This document shows, piece by piece, positions 5,388-62,804 of a stretch of 64,000 bases of DNA. Position 1 is the first letter of the stretch; each line of letters begins with the position of its first letter. The notes under the pieces were generated by a model. It was not told where the DNA came from. It did not search any database and saw nothing but the letters and a program-made list of their open reading frames with translations. Source of the DNA: Candidatus Woesearchaeota archaeon (GTDB lineage: Archaea; Nanobdellota; Nanobdellia; Woesearchaeales; JACPBO01); contig JAUSCS010000006.1 of the NCBI GenBank assembly GCA_030651135.1, positions 318,851-382,850 on the forward strand, written 5' to 3'. The position numbers were made by a program, and so were the translations under genes.

Positions 5388-5528
5388 ATCTTCAGGTTTC
5401 TTTACAGTTATATGTTCCTTTGCAAAGTTTATCAGTTCATTATAAAAATTTTCGACATTCTGGAAAATTGCGTTCCGCAAAGTAATTTTTAGTGGCTCGT
5501 GTTCAATCAAAAAAGCAAAGCGATACAT
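5376..5528 (-). CDS. Possible 50-residue hypothetical protein
   Basis: An ATG-initiated frame encodes a compact 50-residue sequence (MYRFAFLIEHEP... ending EDLIS) and overlaps the 3' end of the RHH gene by 12 bases on the opposite strand. The amino-acid composition looks protein-like, but there is no clear ribosome-binding site or recognised domain. It may be a remnant of a larger gene. Confidence 0.3.
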   Translation of the reverse strand: MYRFAFLIEHEPLKITLRNAIFQNVENFYNELINFAKEHITVKKPEDLIS

Positions 5529-5682
5529 AAAAAACAAAAATAAAGGGGGACATTTCGTTTTAGTCGTTCGTTAGGGAGTGGGGTGATGGCGCTATTATGT
5601 TCTCAAAAATTAATTGAAAATCACCCTCCATAATCGATGCTTTTAAAAACATGGCCTGTTTTTTGAGTAATTACACAATACA

Positions 5683-6963: not shown

Positions 6964-6984
6964 ATTGAACTTAACATCGGAATT
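6964..6984 (+). repeat. Direct repeat copy 1 (21 bases)
   Basis: Identical to 8691-8711 (ATTGAACTTAACATCGGAAT plus one T). The two copies bracket the lipoprotein gene at 7174-8352. Confidence 0.8.
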
Positions 6985-8640: not shown

Positions 8641-8711
8641 GTGCGAAGCACCGAACTCCCCCCGTAAATCGTAATTAGAACTTAAACACAATTGAACTTA
8701 ACATCGGAATT
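8641..8711 (+). repeat. Right arm of inverted repeat plus direct repeat copy 2
   Basis: Holds GTGCGAAGCAC, CGAACTCCCCCCG and GAACTTAAACACAA, all matching 7037-7102 in inverted order. The 21-base direct repeat at 8691-8711 is identical to 6964-6984. Confidence 0.75.
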
Positions 8712-8802
8712 TAACGAAGTTTTTTCTCCTCTAAAATCCGAGCCTCGAAAAATGAGGCAACCCGCATTTTTCAGAGTTGCGAGGATTTTGAGAGATGAGA
8801 AA

Positions 8803-9016
8803 AAATTTGGGAAACCGAAGTGCAACGAGGTTTCCGTTAAATTCCTGTTAGCCGACCCGAGCGAAGCGAGAGTGCAACGGGGTCGAGCATTTTTTTCCGC
8901 AGAAAAAAAGCGGAGAAGTTTTCTTACTGCCGAAAATCAGATAGGTGCCGTAGTTTTTACTTACTTTAACATCAATAACTGCGGAGCAGACAATAGTTTA
9001 GTCGTGGGGGTGGGGC
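8803..9016 (+). repeat. Dispersed terminal-repeat element, copy A
   Basis: Starts with AAATTTGGG, a hairpin GGAAACC/GGTTTCC, then CCGTTAAATTCCTGTTAG. A 46-base core at 8913-8958 matches 59895-59940 (reverse strand) at 41 of 46 positions. CCGAAAATCAGATAGGTGCC (8930-8949), TTTTTACTTACTTTAA (8954-8969) and GGGGGTGGGGC (9006-9016) all recur as exact reverse complements within 15520-15662, so copy A is one end of an inverted pair. Confidence 0.8.
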
Positions 9017-9166
9017 GTTCGTCGTTCTTATTTAACTTTTTAAACTTCAATTTAATAGGTACTTACTTAATTAGGTAGTTAGTCAGTTGGTTAGTTAGAC
9101 GGTATAAATATGTTTATTTGATATATGCTAAGATTTGTATTCAAGTATAAATATAACATTAAAAAA

Positions 9167-15452: not shown

Positions 15453-15485
15453 ATGGATTCATATAAAATTATATGTTTATAAATC
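15451..15485 (-). promoter_or_regulatory. R-M operon promoter and probable operator
   Basis: The reverse-strand TATA (15476-15485) is followed by AT-rich dyads and by ATATGGATTCATAT (15451-15464, 5-base arms), which overlaps the first codon of the RHH gene. This is suited to autorepression. Confidence 0.5.
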
Positions 15486-15519
15486 TTACGTCCACTTGTC
15501 CAGTGGTAGTCGTTAGTCA

Positions 15520-15698
15520 GCCCCACCCCCAGTCGTTTAAAGTAAGTAAAAATTTGGGTGAAGCGGAGGCGTAACCGTTTAGCAAATGTTAGATGAAGTA
15601 TGGTATTTCATTATTCTCGTTTTCGTTGGACTGCTAAACGAAGGCACCTATCTGATTTTCGGGAATAGCGTAAGCGTATGAACCTACTAGGCAGTAAG
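15520..15698 (-). repeat. Dispersed terminal-repeat element, copy B (inverted partner of copy A)
   Basis: GCCCCACCCCC (15520-15530), TTAAAGTAAGTAAAAA (15537-15552) and GGCACCTATCTGATTTTCGG (15643-15662) are exact reverse complements of blocks in copy A, in mirrored order. The GGCAGTAAG end (15690-15698) is separated by a ~27-base insertion carrying GCGTAAGCGT. The AAATTTGGG...ACCGTTTAGC backbone (15550-15592) is also inserted. Confidence 0.8.
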
Positions 15699-15921
15699 AA
15701 AATTTTGGCTAACGTATGCGATTTAACGAAGTCGTTTAAGTTCCGCAGAACATTAAACGATTTGGGTCGAACGACTGCAAGGAGTGAGCCGTTAAATCGC
15801 TGTTAAATACCCCGACTGAAGCAAGTGAGTGTAAAATAAATTATCAAATTTCTCACTTGCGTAAGGAGAGCGCAGCGTGGTCGAGGTTTAAATTCCCGCA
15901 GGAATATTAAACCGAAGAAGT

Positions 15922-16026
15922 CTTTTGTTACCGTAAATATATGCTATTGCCGTAGTTTTTTTAATGAATCGTTTAATCAATTCCTGCGTAGTAGACTAAA
16001 AGTTAGTCGTAAGGGGGGAATCGGGA
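15922..16026 (-). repeat. Dispersed terminal-repeat element, copy C
   Basis: ATGCTATTGCC (15941-15951), TTTTTTTAATGAATCG (15956-15971) and GGGGGGAATCGGGA (16013-16026) recur as exact reverse complements at 21163-21173, 21055-21070 and 21036-21049. CTTTTGTTACCGTAAAT (15922-15938) recurs inverted at 21181-21215, split by about 17 bases. Confidence 0.8.
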
Positions 16027-16296
16027 TTAATATCCTCTTTCTTTCATTCTTTTATTTACTAGTGACCTGTCAACTCTGACATTAGCAACAATTCTGTCGT
16101 AACTTCTTCCTACCGGAACTATCGTAACTGTTTCACCACTTATCAGATTTCGAAGTGTACTCGTGGCAGACTTACCACCAAATTGATTTTTTTCTGGTGC
16201 ATTAACATTTGCCAGACGTATTTTATTAGTTCCATTTATCATTCGATTTACGATAAAAGTATCGCCATCGATAACTTTAGTAACTGTTCTTCTCAT
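16027..16296 (-). CDS. Minimal staphylococcal-nuclease-like protein
   Basis: The 89-residue protein starts at the ATG with GGAGGTG six bases upstream; the GTG at 16305 lies inside that site. TVTKVIDGDTFIV, KIRLANVNAPE and TLRNLISGETVTIVP followed by SYDRIVANVRV reproduce the SNase core in order. It has the Asp of DGDT and the Arg of IRL. It is much shorter than secreted thermonucleases and lacks a signal peptide, so activity is uncertain. It is the last gene of a three-gene module typical of small viruses or plasmids. Confidence 0.65.
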   Translation of the reverse strand: MRRTVTKVIDGDTFIVNRMINGTNKIRLANVNAPEKNQFGGKSATSTLRNLISGETVTIVPVGRSYDRIVANVRVDRSLVNKRMKERGY

Positions 16297-21035: not shown

Positions 21036-21215
21036 TCCCGATTCCCCCCCGTTTCGATTCATTAAAAAAATTTGGGAGAGCGAAGCGAACCGTTAAATAA
21101 ATGTTAGAATTAGTTGCGAAGCAATTTAGTTTTTTCTCGTCTCCGTCTCACGATTTAACGAAGGCAATAGCATTTTTATTATTTACGGCACCAGCCTCGT
21201 TAGAGGTAACAAAAG
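21036..21215 (+). repeat. Dispersed terminal-repeat element, copy D
   Basis: Inverted partner of copy C: TCCCGATTCCCCCC (21036-21049), CGATTCATTAAAAAAA (21055-21070), GGCAATAGCAT (21163-21173) and the split ATTTACGG...GTAACAAAAG (21181-21215). The AAATTTGGG...ACCGTTAAATAAATGTTAG backbone is at 21068-21107. Confidence 0.8.
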
Positions 21216-21224
21216 ATTGTATTT

Positions 21225-21270
21225 AACAACTATTAAACGCAGTTTTAATTGCTGTTTAATAGTTGTTTTT
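21225..21270. repeat. Perfect 14-base-arm hairpin followed by T-run
   Basis: AACAACTATTAAAC pairs with GTTTAATAGTTGTT, and a GCA/TGC pair extends the loop side. TTTTT follows. It could terminate the R-M transcript, or be the site used by the adjacent recombinase. Confidence 0.65.
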
Positions 21271-21285
21271 CGTGTTTAAGCGAAA

Positions 21286-21297
21286 CTTTTATATACG
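21286..21297 (+). promoter_or_regulatory. TATA box of xerA
   Basis: CTTTTATATACG is centred ~27 bases before ATG 21320, which favours that start over the upstream in-frame codon. Confidence 0.55.
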
Positions 21298-21319
21298 TAT
21301 TGTTATTTTCTGTTTTTAT

Positions 21320-22138
21320 ATGGTTGCCATGGTGAGTGATGACATGAATGATCATGTGGCTGATAATGAGCCCTACCTTGACAAGCTTTGCGAAGAGCTG
21401 AGGCTGAGGAAATACTCTAAGCAGACTGAAAAGACATATCTTAATTTGATAAAGAATTTTCTTGCATCTGGAAAACAGCCAAGGGAATATCTTTTGGGAT
21501 ATACCGAGAAGAGCAGATCTGCCATCCGCTCAGTTTATTTTGCCCTTAAGTTTTTTTATGAGCACGTCTTAAACCAAAAGTTTGACGAGAAAATACCTCT
21601 TGCAAAAAATGGCGGAAAGCTGCCTACAGTCTTAAGCAAGGAAGAGATAACCAAAATGTTTGAATCGACATTAAATCTCCGCCACAGGCTGATTCTCATG
21701 TTTTTATATTACACCGGAGTAAGGCTCGACGAAATAGTAAACTTAAAATGGGAAGATCTTGATTTTGACAGAGATGTAATCCACCTTAAAATAACAAAAG
21801 GCAGCAAAGACAGGGTTATTTTCTTTCATCAAAAGCTAAAGCAGTTTATTGCGATGTTCAACTTAAAGAAAGAAGGCCTTATTTTTCTTTCAAATCTTGG
21901 CAGGAAATACAACAAAAGGACCATACAAGTTATAGTTAAAAGCGCGGCAATGAAAGCAGGCATAAATAAAAGGGTAACTCCCCATACATTTAGGCACAGC
22001 TTCGCAACTCATCTGCTTGAAGCTGGCGCAGATATAAGGCATATCCAAAAATTATTGGGTCATGCAAACCTGCAGACAACGCAGATCTACACTCATGTAG
22101 CAAACAGGGACATAAAAAGGCTGGCAGATTTATTGTAG
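21320..22138 (+). CDS. xerA: Tyrosine recombinase, XerA type
   Basis: The 272-residue protein has an N-terminal SAM-like core-binding domain (YLDKLCEELRLRKYSKQTEK) and a catalytic domain with the full set: R135 (TGVRLDEI), K160/K163 (TKGSKDR), H222xxR225 (HTFRHSF), H248 (LLGHAN) and nucleophile Y257 (QIYTHV). It lacks the extra patch of integron integrases. XerA resolves chromosome dimers at dif in archaea. It sits directly outside two repeat-bounded islands, so it could also act on them. It may be the core genome copy that marks the island edge. Confidence 0.85.
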   Translation: MVAMVSDDMNDHVADNEPYLDKLCEELRLRKYSKQTEKTYLNLIKNFLASGKQPREYLLGYTEKSRSAIRSVYFALKFFYEHVLNQKFDEKIPLAKNGGKLPTVLSKEEITKMFESTLNLRHRLILMFLYYTGVRLDEIVNLKWEDLDFDRDVIHLKITKGSKDRVIFFHQKLKQFIAMFNLKKEGLIFLSNLGRKYNKRTIQVIVKSAAMKAGINKRVTPHTFRHSFATHLLEAGADIRHIQKLLGHANLQTTQIYTHVANRDIKRLADLL

Positions 22139-22228: not shown

Positions 22229-22260
22229 GTATGCTTTTATTTAATGAGGACATTCTAAAA

Positions 22261-25200
22261 ATGGATCAAAATTCTGAAGAAAATAACAATAAAAAACAGG
22301 AAAGAATAGTCAACAGAGTGATTGAAGATGAGATGAAGCAGTCATATCTTGATTATTCCATGTCAGTTATAGTCGGAAGGGCATTGCCGGATGTAAGAGA
22401 TGGATTGAAGCCAGTGCATAGAAGGATTCTTTTTGCAATGAATGATATGGGCATGCACCATAACAAGCCTTTTAAAAAATCTGCTAGGATAGTAGGTGAG
22501 TGCCTCGGAAAATATCATCCGCACGGAGATATTGCAGTCTATGATGCAATGGTCAGGATGGCGCAGGATTTCTCGCTGCGTTATCCTTTGATAAATGGGC
22601 AAGGCAATTGGGGTTCTGTCGACGGAGATTCTGCTGCCGCCATGCGGTATTGTGTAACAGGAGATACACTAATAGTAACTAGTAAAGGAATTATGTCTAT
22701 GGCGAGCATTTCTAAAGATAAAGAATCAAGAATCAATTTAAAAGTATTGTCATATGATGGAAGAATAAATCATGCTTCAAAATTTTTCAATTCAGGAAAA
22801 CATAAAACAATAAAGTTGGTAACTAAATCAGGATATTCTATTGAAGGTTCTTATAACCATCCTCTTCTAATCTGGAGAATAGGTCAAAATTTTAAACCGA
22901 TTATCTCGTGGAAAACTCTTGAGAATTTTGAAGAGGGGGATGTAGTGATAATAAAGAGGGGCGGTAATTTATTCTCAAAAAAACCTTTAGACTTAAGAGA
23001 ACATCATCCTAAAAAAGGCTTCAAAAATGATGTCGCTCTCCCAGAACGAATGAATAATGATTTAGCATTTTTATTGGGTGCTTTAGTGAGTGAAGGAAGC
23101 TTTCACAATAAGCAAATATCATTTAATAATAAAGATATGAAGTTTTATGATAAAGTCAAGTCAATTATTTTATCGCAATTTAAAGGAATTCAACTATATG
23201 AAAGAAAAATAAAAGGGGCTTGCACAGAATTAAGCATTTATGAACAAAAGGCAGTTATTTTCTTGCAGAATATAGGTCTAGAATCCTCTAAATCTGATAA
23301 AAAAGAAATTCCATTTTCTGTTTTAATATCCTCGAGAGAAAATATGAAATCCTTCTTAGAAGCGTTGTTCGAGGGTGATGGAAGTGTGGCATTAGTAATA
23401 GATAAAAGGCATGGAGGGAAAGCTATTCAATTGAATTATAATTCTAAAAGTGAGATTCTAATAAAACAAATCAAGACACTTTTATTAAATTTCGGGATAG
23501 TCTCTAGCAAACCTTACAAAGACAAAAGAAATGAATGTTTTAAATTAGTAATATCTTCCTGTGAAGGTATATTACGATTTCATAAAGAACTTGGTTTTTT
23601 TTCAAAAAGAAAAAAAACAACCCTAAAATCAATAGAAAGAATCAACCCATCAAGATTAAGCAAAACTGATTTTGTTCCTTTTTTGAATGATTATCTAAGA
23701 AACAAATACGCTTCTGAATTTATACTGAGGAATAATTTTGATAGATACAATTCATTAACTAAAAATTATTCTGTACTCGTAAGGGTGATTGATCATGAAG
23801 ATAAATGTCTGATAGATTGGATTTTAAAAAATAGATTTTATTTTGATCAAATAAATAAAGTAGAGAAAACAGAAACCCTAAAAGAAGTGTTTTCAGTAAA
23901 GGTAGATAGTAAATGTCATTCTTTTGTTGCCAATGGATTTATAAATCATAACACAGAGGCAAGATTAAGCAAGATTGCAGAAGAACTGCTGCAGGACATT
24001 GAAAAAGAAACTGTAAAATTTGTTGATAATTTTGACGGCAGCTTGAAAGAGCCAACAGTATTGCCTTCAAAAATCCCAAATCTGTTAATCAATGGATCAA
24101 GCGGAATTGCAGTCGGCATGGCAACAAACATTCCGCCGCACAATATTTCAGAAGTTTCAGAAGGCGTAATCGCTGCAATTGACGACCCCGACATTACAAC
24201 TGAAAAACTGATGTGCTTCGTACGCGGCCCGGATTTTCCTACAGGCGCATCAATTCTCGGATTAGGGGGAATAAAACAGGCATACGAAACCGGAAGAGGC
24301 AGTGTAATTGTAAGGGCGAAGACAGCTATTGAAGAGAAGAAAGAACGAAAAAACATCATTGTAAATGAAATACCTTATCAGGTGAATAAATCAATCATGA
24401 TAGAGCAGATTGCAGGCCTTATAAGAGATAAAAGCCTTAGCGGAGTTTCTGATTTAAGAGATGAAAGCGACAGAGAAGGCATGCGCGTTGTCATTGAGCT
24501 GAAAAAGGATGCAAATCCTGAAGTTATTCTTAACCAGCTTTACAAGCACACATCAATGCAGACAACATTCGGCATAATAATGCTTGCATTGGTCAACAAC
24601 GAGCCCAAGGTTTTAAGCCTGAAGGGAATGGTGCAGCATTTCATAAAGCACCGCCAGGATGTTGTAAGGAAGAGAACAGACTTTGATCTTAAGGAAGCTG
24701 AAAAGAAAGCCCATATTTTGGAAGGCTTAATCATAGCATTAAATGACATCGACAATGTTATACAAAAAATAAAAAAATCAAGGGATGCGGCAGAAGCAAA
24801 GATCATGCTGATTGGCGATTACAGGCTTACTGAAGTGCAGTCATTGGCAATTCTGGATATGAGGCTGCAAAGATTAGCATCATTGGAGCAGGAAAAAATA
24901 AAAAATGACCATAAGGAGCTGCTAAGGATCATAGAAGAGCTCAGGGCAATACTTTTAGACGAAGCCAAAATTTTAGGCTTGATAAAAAACGAATTGATTG
25001 AAATCAAAAACAATTACGGCGATGGAAGAAGAACGCAGATTGAAGAATCAGTTGCAGATGAAATATGCACAGAAGACCTTGTAAAGCCGGAAGAAATGGT
25101 TGTCACAATGACGCATGAAGGCTATATAAAAAGGCTTTCTGTTGACGCATACAAGCTGCAAAAAAGAGGCGGCCATGGAGTTATAGGCGCAGGCAAAAAA

Positions 25201-26043
25201 GAAGAGGATTTTGTTGAAGATCTGTTTATTGCAAACACACATTCGTATATTTTATTCTTCACAAATAAAGGAAAAGTGCATTGGCTTAAGGTCTATGAAA
25301 TCCCAGAAGTATCGAGAATTGCAAAAGGAACAGCTGTTGTTAATTTGCTGGATCTTGGCAAGGATGAAAAAGTCAGCGCATTTGTTCCTATCAGGGAATT
25401 TGATGACCGGCATTTCATTGTGTTTGCAACAAAGAAAGGCACAGTGAAGAAAACAAATCTTGCAGAATATTCAAGGCCAAGGGCAGGCGGAATAATCGCG
25501 ATAACATTGGAAGAAGGAGATGAGCTGATAAATACGAGCCTTACAGACGGAAAGCAGCAGATAATTCTTGCAACAAAGAATGGGCTTGCTGTCCGCTTCA
25601 GGGAAGAGGATGTAAGGGCAACCGGAAGATCAGCCCAGGGCGTCAGGGGAGCAAGATTAAGGCAGAATGATGAAATAGTTGGAATGGTGATCGGTGATGA
25701 TTCCAAAACTTTGCTGACTGTTACAGAAAACGGCTATGGGAAGAGAACTCAGATTTCAGAATACCGCTTAGTCAGCCGCGGCGGAGTTGGCGTAAGAAAC
25801 ATTATCTGCAGCGAAAGAAACGGCTGTGTTGTTGCTGCCAAATCAGTGATTGACGATGATGAGCTGATATTTATAAGCAAGAACGGGATTGTCCTGAAGA
25901 CAAAGGCAAGCGGCATTTCAGTTATCGGAAGGGCGACTCAGGGAATGACAATCATGAAGCTCGAAGAAGGCGACAAGCTGGTTGCAGCTGCAAGGATTGT
26001 CAAAGAGGAGAATGGAAACTCTGAAAATAAGCAAATTATTTAA
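22261..26043 (+). CDS. gyrA: DNA gyrase subunit A, intein-containing precursor
   Basis: After splicing, the mature protein is ~826 residues. It has the 5Y-CAP breakage domain ([16 protein letters not shown]; catalytic Tyr130 in AAMRY) and the tower and coiled-coil. The GyrA-box equivalent ([11 protein letters not shown]) opens a six-bladed C-terminal propeller, with repeats such as [11 protein letters not shown]. GyrA with GyrB introduces negative supercoils in an ATP-dependent way. gyrB is not in the window. Type IIA gyrase is bacterial in origin but common in DPANN and euryarchaea. The 1302-base intein interrupts it exactly after the catalytic Tyr. Confidence 0.95.
22651..23952 (+). mobile_element. 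GyrA intein with LAGLIDADG homing endonuclease
   Basis: 434 residues from Cys ([13 protein letters not shown], block A) to Asn ([11 protein letters not shown], block F), followed by Thr of TEARL. Block B is GSYNHPLLI. The endonuclease blocks are [11 protein letters not shown] and [11 protein letters not shown], each with its acidic residue. The insertion lies at the catalytic Tyr/Thr junction, the same site as mycobacterial GyrA inteins. All residues needed for splicing are present, and both endonuclease motifs look intact. The insert is more AT-rich than the flanking gyrA exteins, which fits later arrival. Confidence 0.95.
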
Positions 26044-53501: not shown

Positions 53502-55025
53502 ATGGACTTAAAAAAGCTAATTAACACTTTGCATCCTCTAGAAAGGAGAGTTCTGCCTTTTTTAGATAAATATAGCTATCTAAATGACTTAGTTAACATA
53601 ACTGGGCTTAAAGAAGTCGAAGTAATGCGCGCATTGCAATGGTTACAGAACAAAAACATAATAAAACTCTCAGAAGAGTCAAAAGAAGTGATAAATATCG
53701 ATGAAAATGGCAGAAAATACATTAAAGAAGGATTACCAGAGATTAAATTACTAAAATCGCTTAAAAAATCAGATTTAACATTAAATCAGGCAAAAGATAG
53801 AGCAAATTTGAGTAAAGACGAATTAAACATCTGTTTGGGCGTTTTAAGGAAGAAAGCAGCCATTTTTATCACAAAAGACAAGGACATTATAATAAAGCTT
53901 ATGGATCAAGGAAGGAAAATTCTTGATAATGGCAGCCTGGAAGAAATTTTCTTAAAAAACCAATTTCCCATCGAGCTTAAACTTTTAAAAGAAGAAGAGA
54001 GATTTGCTTTTGAAGAGCTTAAATCAAGAAGGAAAATATTAAAATTGGATCTTGTAAAAATTAAAAGAGCAGAGCTTACTGATACAGGCAAAAAAATTCT
54101 TGAAGCAGGGATTGATGTAGGAAATATACTTGACAGGCTAACCTCAGCAATGCTTAGAGACAGCTCTTGGAAAGAAAAGGAATTCAGAAGATATGACATC
54201 AAGATAAATGTTCCCTCTGTTTTCGGCGGAAGAAAGCAGCATTACAGAAGATTCCTGGATGAAGTGCGGCAGAAATTTCTTGCGCTAGGATTTACAGAGA
54301 TGTTCGGCCCCATAGTTGAAACAAATTTCTGGGACATGGATGCATTATTTATGCCGCAGTTCCACTCAGCCCGCGACATCCATTCCGCTTACCATATAAA
54401 AGATCCGAAATTTGCAAAGGATCTTCCAAAAGACCTTGTTGATAAAGTTAAGAAAGCGCATGAAAATGGATTTGGAACCGGAAGCAAAGGCTGGCAGTAT
54501 GAGTTTGATGTTAAATTAACAGCGCAGCATTTGCTTAGAACCCAGGGAACAGCTTTAAGCGCAAGAATGCTTGCTTCAGACCAGTTAAAAATTCCTGGAA
54601 AATATTTTGCAATTGCCCGCTGTTTTCGCCCTGATGTTGTTGATGCAACGCATTTGGCGGATTTTAACCAGGTTGAGGGCATCATAGCTGAAGAAGGCCT
54701 CAATATGAGGCATTTATTTGGCTTATTGAAGCTCTTTGCAAAAGAATTCGCAAACACAACAGAGATAAAGATAACGCCAGCTTATTTCCCATTCACAGAG
54801 CCTTCTGCAACATTATACGCAAAGCACCCTGAAATGGGATGGATCGAGCTTGGCGGCTCAGGAATCTTCCGCCCTGAAATGACAAAGCCGCTCGGAATAA
54901 ATGTTCCTGTCTTGGCATGGGGCATTGGAATTGACAGATTGGCAATGTTCAAGCTCGGAATAAAAGATATAAGAGAATTATTTTCGCATGATCTTGGATT
55001 TTTAAAAAAGGAGAAGATGGTATAA
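53502..55025 (+). CDS. pheS: Phenylalanyl-tRNA synthetase alpha subunit
   Basis: 507 residues, archaeal/eukaryotic type. Three winged helices form the N-terminus, then the class II core: motif 2 near AIARCFRPDVVDATHLADF, and motif 3 in LAWGIGIDRLAMFKLGI. Start 53502 lies ~28 bases after TATA ATTTTTATATATC. It overlaps pheT by one base. Confidence 0.95.
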   Translation: MDLKKLINTLHPLERRVLPFLDKYSYLNDLVNITGLKEVEVMRALQWLQNKNIIKLSEESKEVINIDENGRKYIKEGLPEIKLLKSLKKSDLTLNQAKDRANLSKDELNICLGVLRKKAAIFITKDKDIIIKLMDQGRKILDNGSLEEIFLKNQFPIELKLLKEEERFAFEELKSRRKILKLDLVKIKRAELTDTGKKILEAGIDVGNILDRLTSAMLRDSSWKEKEFRRYDIKINVPSVFGGRKQHYRRFLDEVRQKFLALGFTEMFGPIVETNFWDMDALFMPQFHSARDIHSAYHIKDPKFAKDLPKDLVDKVKKAHENGFGTGSKGWQYEFDVKLTAQHLLRTQGTALSARMLASDQLKIPGKYFAIARCFRPDVVDATHLADFNQVEGIIAEEGLNMRHLFGLLKLFAKEFANTTEIKITPAYFPFTEPSATLYAKHPEMGWIELGGSGIFRPEMTKPLGINVPVLAWGIGIDRLAMFKLGIKDIRELFSHDLGFLKKEKMV

Positions 55026-56686
55026 TGCCAACAATAACCTTTTCATTCAAAGACCTGCAGAAGCTTGCAGGGAAAAAGATCTCTGCAGAGGAGCTTTCAA
55101 AATTCATAGAATACGGAAAAGGCGAGCTTAAAAGCTATGATGAAAAAGAAGATGAAGTTTCAGTTGATTTTGATGACACCAATCTGCCATATTTATGGAG
55201 CGCAGAGGGGATTGCAAGATTGATTAAGGGGATTTCAGGAAAAGAGAAAGGAATTCCAAAATTAAAAATTGAAAAATCAAATTACAAGCTGGTTGTTGAC
55301 AGGAGCGTCAATAAGGTAAGGCCTTACATAGCCGCATTCGTTGCAAAAGGATGCAAGGTTGATGATTATTTGCTCAAGCAGATAATACAGCTGCAGGAAA
55401 AGCTCTGCGAAACTTACGGCAAGAAAAGGCAGAAACTCGCAGTCGGCCTTTATTCATATAAAAAGATAACTTTCCCGGTGATCTACAAGGCAACAGATCC
55501 TGAAAGCATAAAATTCATTCCCCTTGACTTCAGAAAGGAAATGACGCAGAGCGAGATATTGGAAGAGCATCCAAAAGGAAAAGAATATGCATGGATCCTG
55601 AAAGATTTTTCAAAATATCCTATTTTAATTGACTCTAAAAAAGAGGTTTTAAGCTTTCCTCCAATAATAAATTCCTCGCTTACAGGCAAGGTTGAGATCG
55701 GAGAAGAAGACCTGTTTTTTGAATGCACAGGCACAGACCTTGACTCAGTTAATCTGGCTGCAAACATATTTGCGCAGGCATTTTATGAGCGCGGATTTAA
55801 GATTTATTCTGTAAATATAAAATATCCCAATAAAACAATAAAAACACCTTTCATGTTCAATGAAACAATAAAAATAAAGAAAGAGCAGATAAAAGAAATG
55901 CTTGGCTTGGATCTGAAAGACAGCGAAGTTAAAGTGCTGGCTGAAAAAGCAGGCTATAATTTCAAAGGGTATAAAATAGAAATTCCATGCTATAGAAAAG
56001 ACATTCTGCATCCTGTTGATATTATTGAAGACATCGCAATAATGTATGGCTATGACAAGATCGGCGAGGAAAAGCTAAAAAGCTACACAATTGGAGAAAC
56101 AAAGGAAATAATAAATTTTGTTGATAAGATAAGAGAAATCATAATTGGCCTTGGCTATCAGGAAATAATGAGCCCCTTATTGTCAAACAAGGAAATTCTT
56201 TATGAGAAGATGAATATTAAGGATTTCGGAACAGTTGAGCTGGAAAATTACATGTCTGAAAATTACTCTGCTGTCAGAAGCTGGCTGCTGCCGATTTTGA
56301 TGGAGGTTTTAGCTAAGAACAAGCACATTGATTACCCGCAGAAGATCTTTGAGCAGGGCATTGTAACTGTAAGAAACAAAGAAGAGATAAAAGATTATGA
56401 AAGGATCGCAGTTTTAGCTGTCCATGACAAGGCTGATTTCACAGAGATAAAGCAGGTGTTTGATCATCTTTTTAGATGCCTCGGCTTGCAGTATGTTATT
56501 GAGGATGCTGATCATTCTTCTTTTATCGAAGGCAGAGTTGGCAGGATCTCTGTCAATGGCATTGCTGTTGCCTATATCGGAGAAGTGCATCCTGCTGTGC
56601 TGGGCAATTTCAACTTAGAGATGCCTGTTGTTGGGTTTGAGCTCAATATTACTGATCTGTTTGAAGCGATGAAGAAGAAAGAATAA
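55025..56686 (+). CDS. pheT: Phenylalanyl-tRNA synthetase beta subunit
   Basis: 553 residues, the short archaeal form: B3/B4 editing domain (~110-270), B5 (IKKEQIKEMLGLDLKDSEVK, with HPVDIIEDIAIMYGYDKI) and the inactive class II-like fold (MSPLLSNKEILYEK to the GEVHPAVLGNFNLE end). The last ~28 bases (GTTTGAAGCGATGAAGAAGA to the stop) are duplicated at 57339-57370, after the next gene. Confidence 0.95.
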   Translation: MPTITFSFKDLQKLAGKKISAEELSKFIEYGKGELKSYDEKEDEVSVDFDDTNLPYLWSAEGIARLIKGISGKEKGIPKLKIEKSNYKLVVDRSVNKVRPYIAAFVAKGCKVDDYLLKQIIQLQEKLCETYGKKRQKLAVGLYSYKKITFPVIYKATDPESIKFIPLDFRKEMTQSEILEEHPKGKEYAWILKDFSKYPILIDSKKEVLSFPPIINSSLTGKVEIGEEDLFFECTGTDLDSVNLAANIFAQAFYERGFKIYSVNIKYPNKTIKTPFMFNETIKIKKEQIKEMLGLDLKDSEVKVLAEKAGYNFKGYKIEIPCYRKDILHPVDIIEDIAIMYGYDKIGEEKLKSYTIGETKEIINFVDKIREIIIGLGYQEIMSPLLSNKEILYEKMNIKDFGTVELENYMSENYSAVRSWLLPILMEVLAKNKHIDYPQKIFEQGIVTVRNKEEIKDYERIAVLAVHDKADFTEIKQVFDHLFRCLGLQYVIEDADHSSFIEGRVGRISVNGIAVAYIGEVHPAVLGNFNLEMPVVGFELNITDLFEAMKKKE

Positions 56687-56690
56687 TGGC
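56659..56690 (+). repeat. pheT 3'-end direct repeat, copy 1
   Basis: Codes for FEAMKKKE plus stop in pheT. It matches 57339-57370 at 30 of 32 positions, spaced exactly 680 bases. Confidence 0.85.
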
Positions 56691-56730
56691 AATCTTATCA
56701 AAACATTAAAATACCATAAGGCGTTCAGAG

Positions 56731-57333
56731 ATGGAATCATTGAAAAGTAAACAATTATGGGAAGAATTTTTTAAAGATTTTTGTGAAGAATGTAAAGAAC
56801 TTTATAAAATCAAGGGATTTACTTATAGCATTCCTAAGGAAGAGCATATTCGTTCTGCATTATACTCTTTCTTGAAAACAAAAGGATGTAAGATGGAAGT
56901 GGAGTCTGACTTTTTTGAAGGATATAGAAAGGATGGTTACCCGAAACAAGCAGGTGAATATGATATTAGAATAATATCTCCATTTTCATCAGTTATTGAA
57001 ATAAAAAGGGCTTCTGCATTAAAAGATTGGCAAAACGGTTATTCGGATTTTTTAGAAAAGTGGAGAGATGATATTAAGAAGCTAGAAAAAATAGGAAAAT
57101 TAGCTCCTACCACTCCAAAAACTGAAGAAGATTGGAATAAAATAAACCGTAAAAGTGAAAAATGTTTTGTATTGATTACATTTTCAAATAAGCCCCTTTA
57201 TGACAACTTAAAAAAGAAGAGCATCGATGAGTTCAATTCAAATCTAAATGGTTTTGACCTTATTGAACATTTTGAAGAAGAGAACATTGGTGAAGAAATA
57301 GCTTGTGATCTTTTTATTTGGACGAAAAAATGA
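56731..57333 (+). CDS. PD-(D/E)xK nuclease-like protein in a pheT insertion
   Basis: 200 residues. GEYDIRIISPFSSVIEIKRAS supplies Asp and E-x-K of the restriction-nuclease core (~residues 77-95). A helical N-terminus and long charged helices surround it. The gene is the only content of a 680-base segment framed by the pheT tail duplication. Codon use is AT-richer than pheT. A nuclease role is inferred from the motif alone. Confidence 0.6.
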   Translation: MESLKSKQLWEEFFKDFCEECKELYKIKGFTYSIPKEEHIRSALYSFLKTKGCKMEVESDFFEGYRKDGYPKQAGEYDIRIISPFSSVIEIKRASALKDWQNGYSDFLEKWRDDIKKLEKIGKLAPTTPKTEEDWNKINRKSEKCFVLITFSNKPLYDNLKKKSIDEFNSNLNGFDLIEHFEEENIGEEIACDLFIWTKK

Positions 57334-57338
57334 ATATG

Positions 57339-57370
57339 GTTTGAAGCGATGAAAAAGAAAGAATAATGAC
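57339..57370 (+). repeat. pheT 3'-end direct repeat, copy 2
   Basis: GTTTGAAGCGATGAAAAAGA followed by AAGAATAATGAC; differs from copy 1 by two bases, one of them in the Lys codons. Confidence 0.85.
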
Positions 57371-57658
57371 CTTCACCTAATTTTTGCTAAACGGTTACGC
57401 TTTGCTTCACCTAAATTTTTGCCAACTATAACTAGCTGGGAGGTTCATATTCTAAAATTGCTTAATTCAATTTACTAAATTATGATCCTCTTCAAACTTA
57501 ATAGTCATTATAAGAGTTTATATCGTATATAGATATACAATGGGCTTATAGCTACCATTAAAGAATTTATGATGGTGATTTATACTTCCGTCTACAAATA
57601 TTAAAATGATAACATTTATATATAAGATAATATCTTGTGCCTTGTGGAGGGGGTATTT
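57371..57658. other. Spacer with repeat backbone and promoter of the micro-HTH operon
   Basis: The reverse-strand AAATTTAGG...ACCGTTTAGC backbone lies at 57377-57418. TATA ACATTTATATATAAG is at about 57611-57625. GTGGAGGGGG precedes the ATG at 57659. No gene seen. Confidence 0.6.
57377..57418 (-). repeat. Dispersed repeat backbone, copy E
   Basis: Reverse strand reads AAATTTAGG, a short TGAAGCAAAGCGTA hairpin-like insert, then ACCGTTTAGCAAAAATTAG. It is closest to 15550-15592. Confidence 0.75.
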
Positions 57659-57829
57659 ATGGATGAAAAAATATTGAATGAGCTGAAAGAAATAAAAAAA
57701 TTGATGTGTTTTCAATTACTGGCATCAGGTGTTACTCCCAAAGGGATAGCCAAGATGTTGGGTCTATCAGAGAAAAGAGTTAGGAATATGTTTCCGGTGA
57801 AAGAGATTAGAGGAGATAATCATGAATAA
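57659..57829 (+). CDS. Micro-HTH protein A
   Basis: 56 residues. Helix 1 is ILNELKEIKKLMCFQLLASG, and the HTH is TPKGIAKMLGLSEKRVRNMF. It starts the seven-member array, with GGAGGGGG before the ATG. The TPKGIAKMLGLS core is similar to sigma-region-4 or Trp-repressor HTH units. The C-terminal PVKEIRGDNHE lacks the lysine tail of its siblings. It overlaps the next gene by 8 bases. Confidence 0.8.
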   Translation: MDEKILNELKEIKKLMCFQLLASGVTPKGIAKMLGLSEKRVRNMFPVKEIRGDNHE

Positions 57830-58031
57830 TGAAAAAGAGATTATCGAAAAACTGAACCTGTTAGTTAAACTTAGTGCTGCTAATTTAGCTACAGGTAAGG
57901 ACTTTAAAGAGCAGGTTAGGCTACTATCATCGGTAGGATTATCACCAAAAGACATTGCAGATGTACTAGGCAAAACACCCAATAATGTCAGTGTTACATT
58001 AAATTATCTTAAAAAAATTAAAAAGGTGTGA
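57822..58031 (+). CDS. Micro-HTH protein B
   Basis: 69 residues. The N-terminal helix NEKEIIEKLNLLVKLSAAN is followed by LSPKDIADVLGKTPNNVSVT, the best-preserved HTH of the array (recognition helix PNNVSVTLNYL). The C-terminus KKIKKV is basic. It begins before the stop of protein A. Confidence 0.8.
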   Translation: MNNEKEIIEKLNLLVKLSAANLATGKDFKEQVRLLSSVGLSPKDIADVLGKTPNNVSVTLNYLKKIKKV

Positions 58032-58034
58032 AAA

Positions 58035-58223
58035 ATGGATGAAAAACAGTTTAAGAAATTGTCATCAGACTTAGATGCTATCAAGAAGCTATTGGTGCTA
58101 TTGTTAAAAAAATATGAAGTAAAAGGCGATTTAATAGCCAAAGCATTAGGTGTATCAGAAGGAAGATTAAGTCAAATTTTCCCTCAAAAGAAATATAAGA
58201 AAGGAGGAGCAAAAAATGCCTAA
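58035..58223 (+). CDS. Micro-HTH protein C
   Basis: 62 residues. LSSDLDAIKKLLVLLLKKYE is the leading helix, and KGDLIAKALGVSEGRLSQIF the HTH. The tail PQKKYKKGGAKNA is strongly basic. It starts 3 bases after B ends and overlaps D by 8 bases. Positions IAKxLGxS are shared with A. Confidence 0.8.
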   Translation: MDEKQFKKLSSDLDAIKKLLVLLLKKYEVKGDLIAKALGVSEGRLSQIFPQKKYKKGGAKNA

Positions 58224-58404
58224 AAAAATTAAAGATAACGAAAAACGTTTAGAAACAATAGAATACCTATTAGCAGGAATCTTGCTTGGAAAAAAGCCAA
58301 ATATCAAAGAAGTTTCAAAAATAATAGGATGCTCAGATAATGTTTTAACAAAGCTTTACCCTGAAAAAAAGGTGAAAAAAAGTGGCGGAAAAAATAAGAA
58401 GTGA
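58216..58404 (+). CDS. Micro-HTH protein D
   Basis: 62 residues. NEKRLETIEYLLAGILLGKK, then NIKEVSKIIGCSDNVLTKLY, then PEKKVKKSGGKNKK. Same plan as C (FPxKK/YPEKK plus KSGGKNKK tail). GGAGG lies in the coding end of C, so translation is coupled. Confidence 0.8.
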   Translation: MPKKIKDNEKRLETIEYLLAGILLGKKPNIKEVSKIIGCSDNVLTKLYPEKKVKKSGGKNKK

Positions 58405-58615
58405 AAGGGAATTGCTTGAATCTATAGAACATAAACTGGATAAGCTAATTGGAGTCACCGCTATACAAGGTAAGGAAGATAAACTACGGGCTAAGATTTT
58501 AAAGTCTTTAGGTTTTAAATACAGAGAAATAAGCGAACTCACAGGAATCGCTGAAGGAACATTGAAAATATGGGATCATCGATCTAAAAAGGGAGGAAAA
58601 AATGCCAAAAATTGA
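58382..58615 (+). CDS. Micro-HTH protein E
   Basis: 77 residues from a GTG start within gene D (23-base overlap). SERELLESIEHKLDKLIGV leads, then a longer linker and LGFKYREISELTGIAEGTLK as the HTH. The tail is RSKKGGKNAKN. It is the member with the largest overlap and the only non-ATG start. Confidence 0.75.
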   Translation: MAEKIRSERELLESIEHKLDKLIGVTAIQGKEDKLRAKILKSLGFKYREISELTGIAEGTLKIWDHRSKKGGKNAKN

Positions 58616-58778
58616 AAAGAATGAGAAAGAAATTCTTGAAGATATCAAAAATCTACTCATTTTGCAGTTAGCTAAAACAGGTGCTACAGATGAAGAAGTT
58701 GCAAAGGCCTTAAATTGTGGTACTAGTACACTTAGAAAGAAGGTTTCTTTTGCAGGGAATAAGAAGAAAAATGGATAA
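58602..58778 (+). CDS. Micro-HTH protein F
   Basis: 58 residues. NEKEILEDIKNLLILQLAKT, then ATDEEVAKALNCGTSTLRKK, then a GNKKKNG tail. GGGAGGAAAA precedes the ATG. Too short for ordinary ORF cut-offs, but it follows the same plan and keeps the 14-base overlap with E. Confidence 0.75.
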   Translation: MPKIEKNEKEILEDIKNLLILQLAKTGATDEEVAKALNCGTSTLRKKVSFAGNKKKNG

Positions 58779-59019
58779 CGAAGAACTAGTAAAAATCAGA
58801 CTATTATTAGAATCCTTGGTTAAGAGGCAAACTGCCAAAGACCTTAAAGAATTACCTTCTAACGAAAAAAGAATCTACGAGTTAACTGGCAAAATTGGGC
58901 AAACTGAGATGGTTAAGAAATTAAAAATTAGCTCTAAGACCATTTCAAAAGCCTGGAAAAATTTGGAAGAAAAGGGATTACTTAAAAAAGAAGGTTCCAA
59001 ATATAAAAAAATGATGTAA
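58771..59019 (+). CDS. Micro-HTH protein G
   Basis: 82 residues. EELVKIRLLLESLVKRQTAK leads, then a winged-helix-like part: GQTEMVKKLKISSKTISKAW, NLEEKGLLKKEGSKYKKM. It is the most divergent member and looks more like an ordinary wHTH. The start overlaps F by 8 bases and the stop is one base from the HEPN start. Confidence 0.75.
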   Translation: MDNEELVKIRLLLESLVKRQTAKDLKELPSNEKRIYELTGKIGQTEMVKKLKISSKTISKAWKNLEEKGLLKKEGSKYKKMM

Positions 59020-59020
59020 A

Positions 59021-59815
59021 ATGGTAGTTGACTCCAAAACATTAAAGGATAATGCAATTACATTATTAGAAAAAGCTACAAGAGCAAAAAAGATATTGCA
59101 AAAAGCAGACGGAAAAAGAAACTATAAAGAAATTGCAAAATTGTTAAAAATTAATGAAAAGACTATTAGCCCAATTCTTAGCTTAGCAAAAGACTTGGGA
59201 TTCGCAGAAAAAATTAAAGCTGGAATTTACAAAAAGATAACTTCAAATATGAAGTACATACCTGAAGTAAAAAATTCTCAGAAAAATACTGATCCACTTG
59301 CTAGTAAAGTGAAAAGAAAGGCTGATAAAGTGAATAATGACCCCAAATTTGTAAAATCCTTGCCGAAATGCGTTTCTGGAGGGCATGACTTTTTGTCTTT
59401 GACTACGAAAATGAAAGATGCATATGAACTACTTTATCTTACCGAGAATTTCCTCCGAGAAATAATCAGGCAAGTTTTATCAAAGTATCCAGATTGGTGG
59501 AATAAAAGGGTTCCTCCTGATGTAATATCTAATGTTCAAAAAGAAAAGGATAGGGCCAAATACAATGATGCCTCAAAAAAAGACGAATTGGAATACACCC
59601 ATTTAGGTGACTTAAACAAGATTATCCTTGATAATAAAAATTGGAAAGAATTCCAACCATTCCTCAATACTAAAGATAAAACTAAATTATCTACTAAATT
59701 AACAGAAGCGATCCCAATGAGAAACGCGGTTGGTCATTGTATACCTCTAAGAGCGGGCGATGATCAGAGATATGCCGAAATGAGATTCAAAGATATTCTT
59801 AGCTTGTTTAAATAA
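59021..59815 (+). CDS. wHTH plus HEPN ribonuclease, effector of the micro-HTH operon
   Basis: 264 residues. Residues ~5-75 are a winged helix (NYKEIAKLLKINEKTISPIL). Residues ~125-264 are a Swt1/DUF4145-like HEPN domain: AYELLYLTENFLREIIRQVL, WWNKRVPPDVISNVQ and EAIPMRNAVGHCIPL, the last containing the catalytic R-N-x-x-x-H. HEPN RNases cleave RNA in toxin-antitoxin and abortive-infection systems. It is the last gene of the array, so its expression depends on all seven micro-HTH genes. This is the only member with a plausible catalytic site. Confidence 0.8.
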   Translation: MVVDSKTLKDNAITLLEKATRAKKILQKADGKRNYKEIAKLLKINEKTISPILSLAKDLGFAEKIKAGIYKKITSNMKYIPEVKNSQKNTDPLASKVKRKADKVNNDPKFVKSLPKCVSGGHDFLSLTTKMKDAYELLYLTENFLREIIRQVLSKYPDWWNKRVPPDVISNVQKEKDRAKYNDASKKDELEYTHLGDLNKIILDNKNWKEFQPFLNTKDKTKLSTKLTEAIPMRNAVGHCIPLRAGDDQRYAEMRFKDILSLFK

Positions 59816-59836
59816 TTCTTGAAAAATTATATAACT

Positions 59837-59940
59837 GAACTCCCTCCAGTCCTAACGGACATCTAGTCTGCTATGCAGAAATCTATTAGTAGGCAAAAAC
59901 TACGGCACCAATCGGACTTTCAGCACTAAGAAAACTTCTC
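59837..59940 (-). repeat. Dispersed terminal-repeat element, copy F
   Basis: GAACTCCCTCC (59837-59847), TAGTCTGCTATGCAGAAAT (59864-59882, 16/19 to reverse complement of 15980-15998) and the 46-base core 59895-59940 matching 8913-8958 reversed at 41/46. Ends the micro-HTH region, nine bases before eL14's stop. Confidence 0.8.
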
Positions 59941-59948
59941 AGATCGTT

Positions 59949-60368
59949 TCACTCTTTTGTTTTCTCTTCTTTCTTTGCCTTGGGTTTTGCTTCTTCAATT
60001 ACCATTTCTTTTACCTTCTTCTCAGCCTTCGGCTTTTTAGCTTCTTTCTTAGCAGGTTTCTTCCCTTCTTTTGCTGCTGCCTTTTCCTTTCCCCTTAGCT
60101 TCTTCGGCTTCTCTGTTTTCTGCTTTGGCTTTGTTGTTATCACTTCAATACCTAATTCCTTGAACACTTTAACAACATCATCATGCGAAGCATTTTTCTC
60201 TATTTTTAGAATCTGGCTTAATGGCTCCAAATGAAGGATATTGCACTTCCTTCTCCTTGTTTCGCCGTCAATCAGAACAAACCTACCTTCTAGAATATCT
60301 ACAACAACACACTTCAGGCCAGCATCCCTTCCTGCCAGCTTCACACATAATCTTCCGATTTCAAACAT
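59949..60368 (-). CDS. rpl14e: Ribosomal protein eL14
   Basis: 139 residues from MFEIGRLCVKLAGRDAGLKC, placed after GGAGG. The KOW-type eL14 core ends near residue 85; a Lys/Pro/Ala-rich tail (KPKKLRGKEKAAAKEGK...) extends it. eL14 is archaeal/eukaryotic and binds 23S rRNA. In-frame upstream codons precede the ribosome-binding site. Confidence 0.92.
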   Translation of the reverse strand: MFEIGRLCVKLAGRDAGLKCVVVDILEGRFVLIDGETRRRKCNILHLEPLSQILKIEKNASHDDVVKVFKELGIEVITTKPKQKTEKPKKLRGKEKAAAKEGKKPAKKEAKKPKAEKKVKEMVIEEAKPKAKKEEKTKE

Positions 60369-60428
60369 TTTTTCCTCCGATCTCCCTTCTAAGGAATATG
60401 TCGCCAATATTCCAGGAGATTTCTCTGT

Positions 60429-61952: not shown

Positions 61953-62804
61953 ATGGATCCCAATAACACATTAGCTGTATTTCAAGGGAAGAAGATAAGG
62001 AGAACTTTACATGAGGGAGAATGGTGGTTTTCTGTAATAGATGTAGTGGCTGTTTTAACAGAACAAGAAGACTTTCAAACAGCAAGGAAATACTGGAATA
62101 AGCTAAGCCAAAGGCTGAGAGAAGAAGGAAGCGAAGCGGTGACAAATTGTCACCAGTTGAAACTTCCTGCTGAAGATGGCAAATTAAGGGAAACAGACTG
62201 CGCTAATACCAAAAATATGTTCAGAATCATCCAATCTATACCTTCTCCCAAGGCAGAGCCTTTCAAGCAGTGGCTTGCTCAGGTTGGCTATGAACGAGTT
62301 CAGGAAATAGAAGATCCCGAACTTGCTCAAAAACGAATGAAGGAGCTTTATAGAGCTAAAGGTTATTCTGACGATTGGATAGAAAAAAGAGTTCGTGGAA
62401 TTGCCATAAGGGACGAATTGACAGACGAATGGAAGAAAAGAGGAGTAGAAGCTGAAAGGGAATTTGCCATTTTAACAGCAGAAATTTCTAAAGCAACTTT
62501 TGGCATGACTCCGAACGAATATAAGAACTTTAAGGGACTGAAAAAAGAGAACTTGCGAGACCATATGGATGATTTGGAACTGATTTTTTCAATGTTAGGA
62601 GAAAAAGTATCGACAGAAATCACGAGAAAAGAAGATGCGCAGGGATACACAGAAGTTGAAGGTACTGCCAAAAGAGGCGGAAGAGTAGCTGGCAATGCAC
62701 GAAAAGACACAGAAAAAGAATTAGGGCGCCCTATCACATCAAGAGAAAACTATCTTTCTGAACCAGAGAAAAAGAAAAAGTTAGAAGATAAGAGTAAAAA
62801 GTAA
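61953..62804 (+). CDS. dinD: DinD/Bro-N family protein
   Basis: 283 residues. The Bro-N domain (IRRTLHEGEWWFSVIDVVAV) spans ~10-110, followed by the DinD-type C-terminal part: KATFGMTPNEYKNFKGL, RDHMDDLELIFSMLGEKVS and ITRKEDAQGYTEVEGTAKRG. In E. coli DinD is SOS-induced and modulates RecA. Leaderless from TATA TTATTTAAAG. It is typical of horizontally spread genes and sits between EMC3 and the ribosomal genes. Confidence 0.85.
   Translation: MDPNNTLAVFQGKKIRRTLHEGEWWFSVIDVVAVLTEQEDFQTARKYWNKLSQRLREEGSEAVTNCHQLKLPAEDGKLRETDCANTKNMFRIIQSIPSPKAEPFKQWLAQVGYERVQEIEDPELAQKRMKELYRAKGYSDDWIEKRVRGIAIRDELTDEWKKRGVEAEREFAILTAEISKATFGMTPNEYKNFKGLKKENLRDHMDDLELIFSMLGEKVSTEITRKEDAQGYTEVEGTAKRGGRVAGNARKDTEKELGRPITSRENYLSEPEKKKKLEDKSKK

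Follow-up and report, generated by a model that had tools for sequence, protein, structure and literature searches.

The stretch of DNA analysed here, the window, is 64,000 nt long, spans G000:C6:318851-382850 and carries pheT, the archaeal-type gene for the phenylalanine-tRNA ligase beta subunit, with rpl14e as its right-hand neighbour on the other strand (Table 1). Between them lie two further segments: segment A, a single gene enclosed by two copies of the pheT 3' end, and segment B (57371 to ~59949), with seven tiny HTH genes and an HTH-HEPN gene. Elsewhere in the window, four intact structured sites of two types, L and S, all on the plus strand, stand around two gene clusters, E1 and E2. 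In a genome of the same genus (G001), whose pheT product is 94% identical in amino acids, pheT and rpl14e are convergent and nearly adjacent.

Table 1. Features of the window (positions from its first letter).
Feature	Position	Strand	Match or remark
Site I, L-type end of cassette E1	8690..9020	+	Covariance model R1, E 6.7e-13
Site IIa, S-type end of cassette E1	15528..15705	+	
Site IIb, L-type end of cassette E2	15710..16020	+	Covariance model R1, E 6.3e-15, for a copy not independent of the family from which the search pattern was built
Site III, S-type end of cassette E2	21045..21240	+	
XerA-type tyrosine recombinase beside site III	21263..22138	+	NF040815 210 bits, just under cut-off 220; conserved in G001
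pheT, phenylalanine-tRNA ligase beta subunit, archaeal type	55025..56686	+	TIGR00471 (NCBIfam pheT_arch) 542 bits, cut-off 283
Tail copy 1, working pheT 3' end plus TG	56659..56688	+	
Segment A, inserted single-gene cassette	56689..57338	+	GC 30.2% (low); absent from G001
TATA-like TTAAAATA, ~20-27 nt 5' of the ATG	56704..56711	+	Read in the sequence
Orphan 200-aa ORF	56731..57333	+	PD-(D/E)xK-like motif GEYDIRI...VIEIKR
Tail copy 2, displaced pheT tail	57339..57368	+	
IV, truncated S-type structured end	57371..57440	-	Directly abuts tail copy 2
Tiny HTH ORF 1 of 7	57635..57829	+	HTH_23 3e-5, slightly under its cut-off
Tiny HTH ORF 2	57822..58031	+	Relatives in G013, G119
Tiny HTH-like ORF 3	58035..58223	+	
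Tiny HTH-like ORF 4	58216..58404	+	
Tiny HTH ORF 5, sigma70 region 4-like	58382..58615	+	2e-4, below cut-off; relatives in G013, G119
Tiny HTH ORF 6	58602..58778	+	
wHTH ORF 7, MarR-like	58717..59019	+	Start uncertain, maybe near 58770
HTH-HEPN gene, PDC-M34B-like defence candidate	59021..59815	+	PADLOC PDC-M34B 2.3e-18
V, inner tail of L-type end	59866..59949	-	Outer L core missing
rpl14e, right-hand neighbour	59949..60407	-	NF003320; last codons differ from G001

The repeated pheT tail and the extent of the insert

The 3' end of pheT is present twice, as the direct repeat GTTTGAAGCGATGAA[G/A]AAGAAAGAATAATG, whose copies are identical at 29 of 30 positions and spaced 680 nt apart. The pheT stop codon (TAA, 56684-56686) falls inside copy 1, and the single difference is a codon that reads AAG in copy 1 and AAA in copy 2 as well as in G001. 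With up to three mismatches allowed, the repeat has just these two matches in the window, against none in 100 shuffles; among 871 ORF ends in the examined loci, the only other match is a weak one in locus L126. A preliminary description had reported a 32-base repeat with two changes, 680 bases apart, around a sole gene. Both statements held: the repeat is the 29/30 core with two further leading bases, and a single ORF stands between the copies. It had also proposed looking for the repeat elsewhere and at the pheT 3' ends of relatives. The first search returned only the same two copies in the whole genome (1.415 Mb, 13 contigs). The second went against a general pattern, with the tail repeated downstream in none of 29 other Woesearchaeales pheT loci (30 loci including this one), and we rejected a recurrent insertion hotspot at pheT on these counts. 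We likewise rejected a tRNA insertion site, as the window is without any tRNA, and the exact 27-bp pheT tail has no match in IMG/VR. A simple tandem duplication of coding sequence, named in advance as one finding that would overturn the proposal, is not favoured: the shared stretch is just 30 bp long, and the copies are separated by foreign DNA.

How far does the foreign DNA reach? Alignment to G001 ends at 56687 and restarts at 59967, and G001 has 6 bp in this place versus 3.28 kb here; the whole interval 56688-59966 is therefore extra. The foreign insert behind pheT is thus ~3.3 kb, a composite of segments A and B. Because the extra interval extends to 59966, tail copy 2 lies inside the insert and not at its end, and no third copy of the tail was found at the insert's right end. 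Close spacing of pheT and rpl14e is probably ancestral, since another genome (G035) also has a lysine-rich, rpl14e-like tail close downstream of pheT. G001 has no relatives of A or B, and the two segments have a GC content of 30-32%, compared with 37.7% for pheT. The earlier proposal of inserted DNA at pheT is thus supported by its absence in G001, its low GC, and a gene without convincing relatives. The unit then delimited was too small, however, for the insert runs on to ~59966 and the right repeat is not its right end.

The orphan ORF of segment A has coding-like GC at its codon positions (37/30/23%), and its 200 aa compare with at most 132 aa for the longest ORF in 2000 shuffles of the segment. 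The TATA-like box upstream of it is a possible promoter of a leaderless transcript. The product had been called PD-(D/E)xK-like; the motif can indeed be seen by eye, and the assignment stands at the level of the motif. Profile searches gave no match in PADLOC, PHROGs, or PDB, solely sub-cut-off matches to unrelated models in Pfam and NCBIfam, and no known homing-endonuclease domain in Pfam, NCBIfam, or PHROGs, and the AlphaFold model was unusable (pLDDT 41). No convincing relatives turned up among phages, plasmids, IMG/VR, GTDB contigs, or the genomes searched, up to 378 of them at a time; one of these searches yielded nothing but fragments with E>0.006. Segment A has no terminal repeats of its own. 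As had been observed, no integrase is encoded between the tail copies, nor is there one in the full 3.3-kb insert.

Segment B has relatives. An HTH-HEPN gene behind an array of five to seven tiny HTH genes, most of them overlapping, is a recurring arrangement (57635-59815; loci L053 and L054), and at least three genomes keep the two together as a conserved module. Genomes G013 and G119 have the same layout, with no relative of segment A. The HTH-HEPN gene, which also matches HEPN_Swt1 (1e-4), has relatives in these two genomes and in G118; there the V tail recurs behind the HEPN gene, together with a collapsed L site. This cargo may act in defence or addiction. When the window was compared with itself, each end of 57371-59949 proved to have matches elsewhere in it: IV is 79% identical to 15528-15598 (E 9e-13), and 85% and 87% identical to the S sites of L100 and L155, while V is 75% identical to 8904-8991 reversed (E 9e-15) and has counterparts beside the L sites of L132, L143, L126, and L099. 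Intact L and S ends do not enclose B, and because both IV and V are truncated, B would be at most a remnant of an L/S-ended cassette. Farther along the window (61953-62804) lies a virus-like Bro-N domain gene, near PHROG 15286 (3e-102).

L and S sites and the cassettes between them

A search with 15490-16030 gave significant matches confined to the window, with none in G001, and the covariance model found strong matches in the window at sites I and IIb only. A pattern built from the window sites matched 31 of 353 genomes of the order, and its reversed form matched none. The same pattern found 52 stretches among GTDB contigs, mostly of DPANN archaea, with a few CPR and other bacterial bins; some of the bacterial occurrences may be binning errors. 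Relatives of the L/S repeats come mostly from Woesearchaeota/Nanoarchaeota records, which together with the archaeal type of pheT suggests that the window stems from this group. In the window's own assembly, locus L044 (G000:C4:14000-33000) has bacterial-type genes (murein-synthesis, FtsW-like), and contig C4, which also holds one integrase locus, is probably bin contamination.

Most of 44 copies of the L site fold as a three-way junction. The 5' arm, TAACATCGGAATTTAACG, which lies outside the search pattern, pairs with the 3' arm, whose invariance is partly due to its inclusion in that pattern. In a 20-copy alignment, 97.1% of cells pair, versus 93.2% in shuffles, and both sides have changed in 18 cells, versus 5.8; slid controls gave at most 50% pairing. 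The S site appears to be a circular permutation of the same junction. A known RNA family was considered and rejected, as Rfam 15 gave no match, either at gathering score for the window or at E<=1 for three loci. L sites were tested for an excess at gene 3' ends, which was not found, and they have no preferred gene orientation; many copies are solitary, lying between genes. A 21-bp sequence is identically repeated (6964-6984 and 8691-8711), and its copy at 6964 shows L-site arms joined to each other (TAACATCGGAATTCCTGTT), resembling a collapsed or excised site; L153 has a comparable collapse near 755-780.

Where an L and an S site occur in the same orientation on one contig, the genes between them are mostly for restriction-modification (E1, E2, L107, and L143), a plain tally over few paired cases. 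The cargo comprises two N6/N4 methyltransferases in E1, between sites I and IIa, and a type IIG-like methyltransferase with a specificity subunit in E2, between IIb and III; L107 has a C5 methylase, and in L143 a GmrSD/HNH restriction enzyme accompanies an EcoRI-type methylase. Since nothing in G001 matches the 5' flank of E1, that genome offers no empty-site comparison for E1/E2. In a prediction test on a region of G082 (L155), an L-type site (~5390-5680) was followed by HsdR, HsdS, HsdM, and an S site (15483-15677). A second interval in L155 holds a methyltransferase and a class-V aminotransferase, so the cargo is not always restriction-modification.

The XerA-type recombinase next to site III is one candidate for a trans-acting mover of these cassettes. 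Against the IntI model TIGR02249 it scores 185 bits, below the cut-off of 265, and on this ground we did not accept the cassettes as integron members. Just beyond it (22231-26043) is a gyrA-like ORF. Its 1270-aa product carries, after about residue 140, a long insertion with ends resembling those of an intein (CVTGDTLI ... VANGFINHN).

Origin of the insert

It is tempting to read the pheT-rpl14e interval as the product of two or more foreign pieces, B first and then A, which brought its own tail by nuclease-promoted tail replacement. We favour this history, at a confidence not quite reaching an even chance. B would have arrived behind the pheT stop as a defence cassette, with its HTH array and HEPN gene, and would later have lost its outer ends. 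A would have come second with its own copy of the pheT tail, joining by recombination at the tail so that pheT now ends in the incoming copy and the native one, copy 2, was displaced downstream to lie next to B. The product of A is probably a nuclease; by cutting the pheT tail or DNA close to it, this nuclease would promote the insertion of A through break repair, with the tail that A carries keeping pheT intact. We infer the order, independence, and movement of A and B from sequence comparison, because we found neither a donor of A nor a genome that has just A, or just B at pheT; no excised or polymorphic state was encountered. Copy 2 reads as native because it shares AAA with G001, where copy 1 has AAG; this polarity turns on a single base, which is weak evidence, and Campbell-type integration with a crossover upstream of that base would give the same pattern.

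Tandem integrase-less islands remain the main rival to tail replacement by A. The 30-bp repeats would then be attL and attR of a mini-island (CIME) served by a tyrosine recombinase in trans and placed in tandem with B by accretion. Several features fit: there are direct repeats, one of them at the 3' end of an essential gene with its stop restored, tandem accretion of CIMEs is documented in bacteria (PMC5704250), and the assembly has five tyrosine recombinases above the Pfam cut-off, one in the window (and another on a contig with bacterial-type genes). However, the repeats do not enclose the whole insert, and B lacks a third site at its right end. The insert is without a recombinase, and neither the 29 other pheT loci, all with unrepeated tails, nor IMG/VR, from which the exact tail is absent, yielded a related integrase element at this site. 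Site-specific integration restoring the tail, as first proposed, is possible, although the missing integrase and the unrepeated tails elsewhere tell against it. We see nothing that speaks positively for an integrase-driven island behind pheT and consider this explanation unlikely.

Two further histories deserve weighing. A fragment carrying A could have been joined by short-homology or non-homologous repair, duplicating 30 bp of pheT by accident, with neither mobility nor a specific nuclease. That this is a single instance, that the gene in A is an orphan, and that A has no terminal repeats of its own are all as expected of an accident. Yet the duplication is neatly terminal, running from 5 bp past the ORF stop to just beyond the pheT stop with both genes intact; selection on survivors could also explain such neat termini. 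We regard an accident as quite improbable. It is very doubtful that A and B came together as one element whose boundary carried the pheT tail of a donor species: the segments are contiguous, are alike in low GC, and are both missing from G001, but the fusion of copy 2 with a truncated S end looks like an older junction, and the B-type cargo of G013 and G119 comes with no relative of A.

Beyond the pheT locus, the structured ends raise the possibility of a previously undescribed mobile cassette of DPANN archaea, perhaps also of CPR bacteria, with mostly restriction-modification or defence cargo and two permuted three-way-junction ends, transposase-less and moved in trans, and of A as a prokaryotic tail-replacing nuclease ORF. 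We offer this only tentatively; the mobility of the structured-end cassettes and its mechanism are putative. Should L and S ends indeed be the marks of mobile cassettes, this would help to explain how very small archaea that depend on hosts gain restriction and defence genes without a transposase or integrase, and the sites would provide a sequence handle for finding more. A tail-replacing nuclease, if A is one, would mean that a type of mobility known from mitochondria extends to prokaryotes. By itself, the local repeat is a modest curiosity; of more interest is the family of structured-end cassettes, of which B appears to be a member.

Comparison with known systems

A close parallel to segment A is found in fungal mitochondrial DNA, where mobile endonuclease ORFs duplicate the carboxy-terminus of a gene (Allomyces atp6; Glomus atp6, atp9, cox2, and nad3) and the displaced copy is nearer to a relative's sequence (PMC3630166). 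In segment A, likewise, a nuclease-like ORF follows a gene and is flanked by two copies of that gene's 3' terminus, and the displaced copy is nearer to G001, here by one informative base. Unlike the fungal ORFs, A lies in an archaeal chromosome, duplicates 30 bp, and has no LAGLIDADG or GIY-YIG match, its nuclease type being putative and motif-level. A also resembles the CIMEs (PMC5704250) in being integrase-less, between direct repeats of a gene 3' end and in tandem with another foreign segment. It differs in its size of just 680 bp, in the lack of a repeat at the far end of the tandem, and in that no related integrase-bearing element is known for the pheT-tail site.

The HEPN protein of B matches PDC-M34B of PADLOC, but it has an N-terminal HTH and is preceded by the seven tiny HTH genes. 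The L/S cassettes, in turn, recall integron cassettes, including the archaeal ones (PMC9668308), in being bounded by foldable DNA sites, and a XerA-type recombinase adjoins the E1/E2 pair. An ordinary attC site is a single imperfect hairpin with R and L boxes; the L sites instead form three-way junctions, and each cassette has two different sites. The L/S cassettes also differ in being ~3-10 kb long with whole operons, and the recombinase beside E1/E2 falls under the IntI cut-off.
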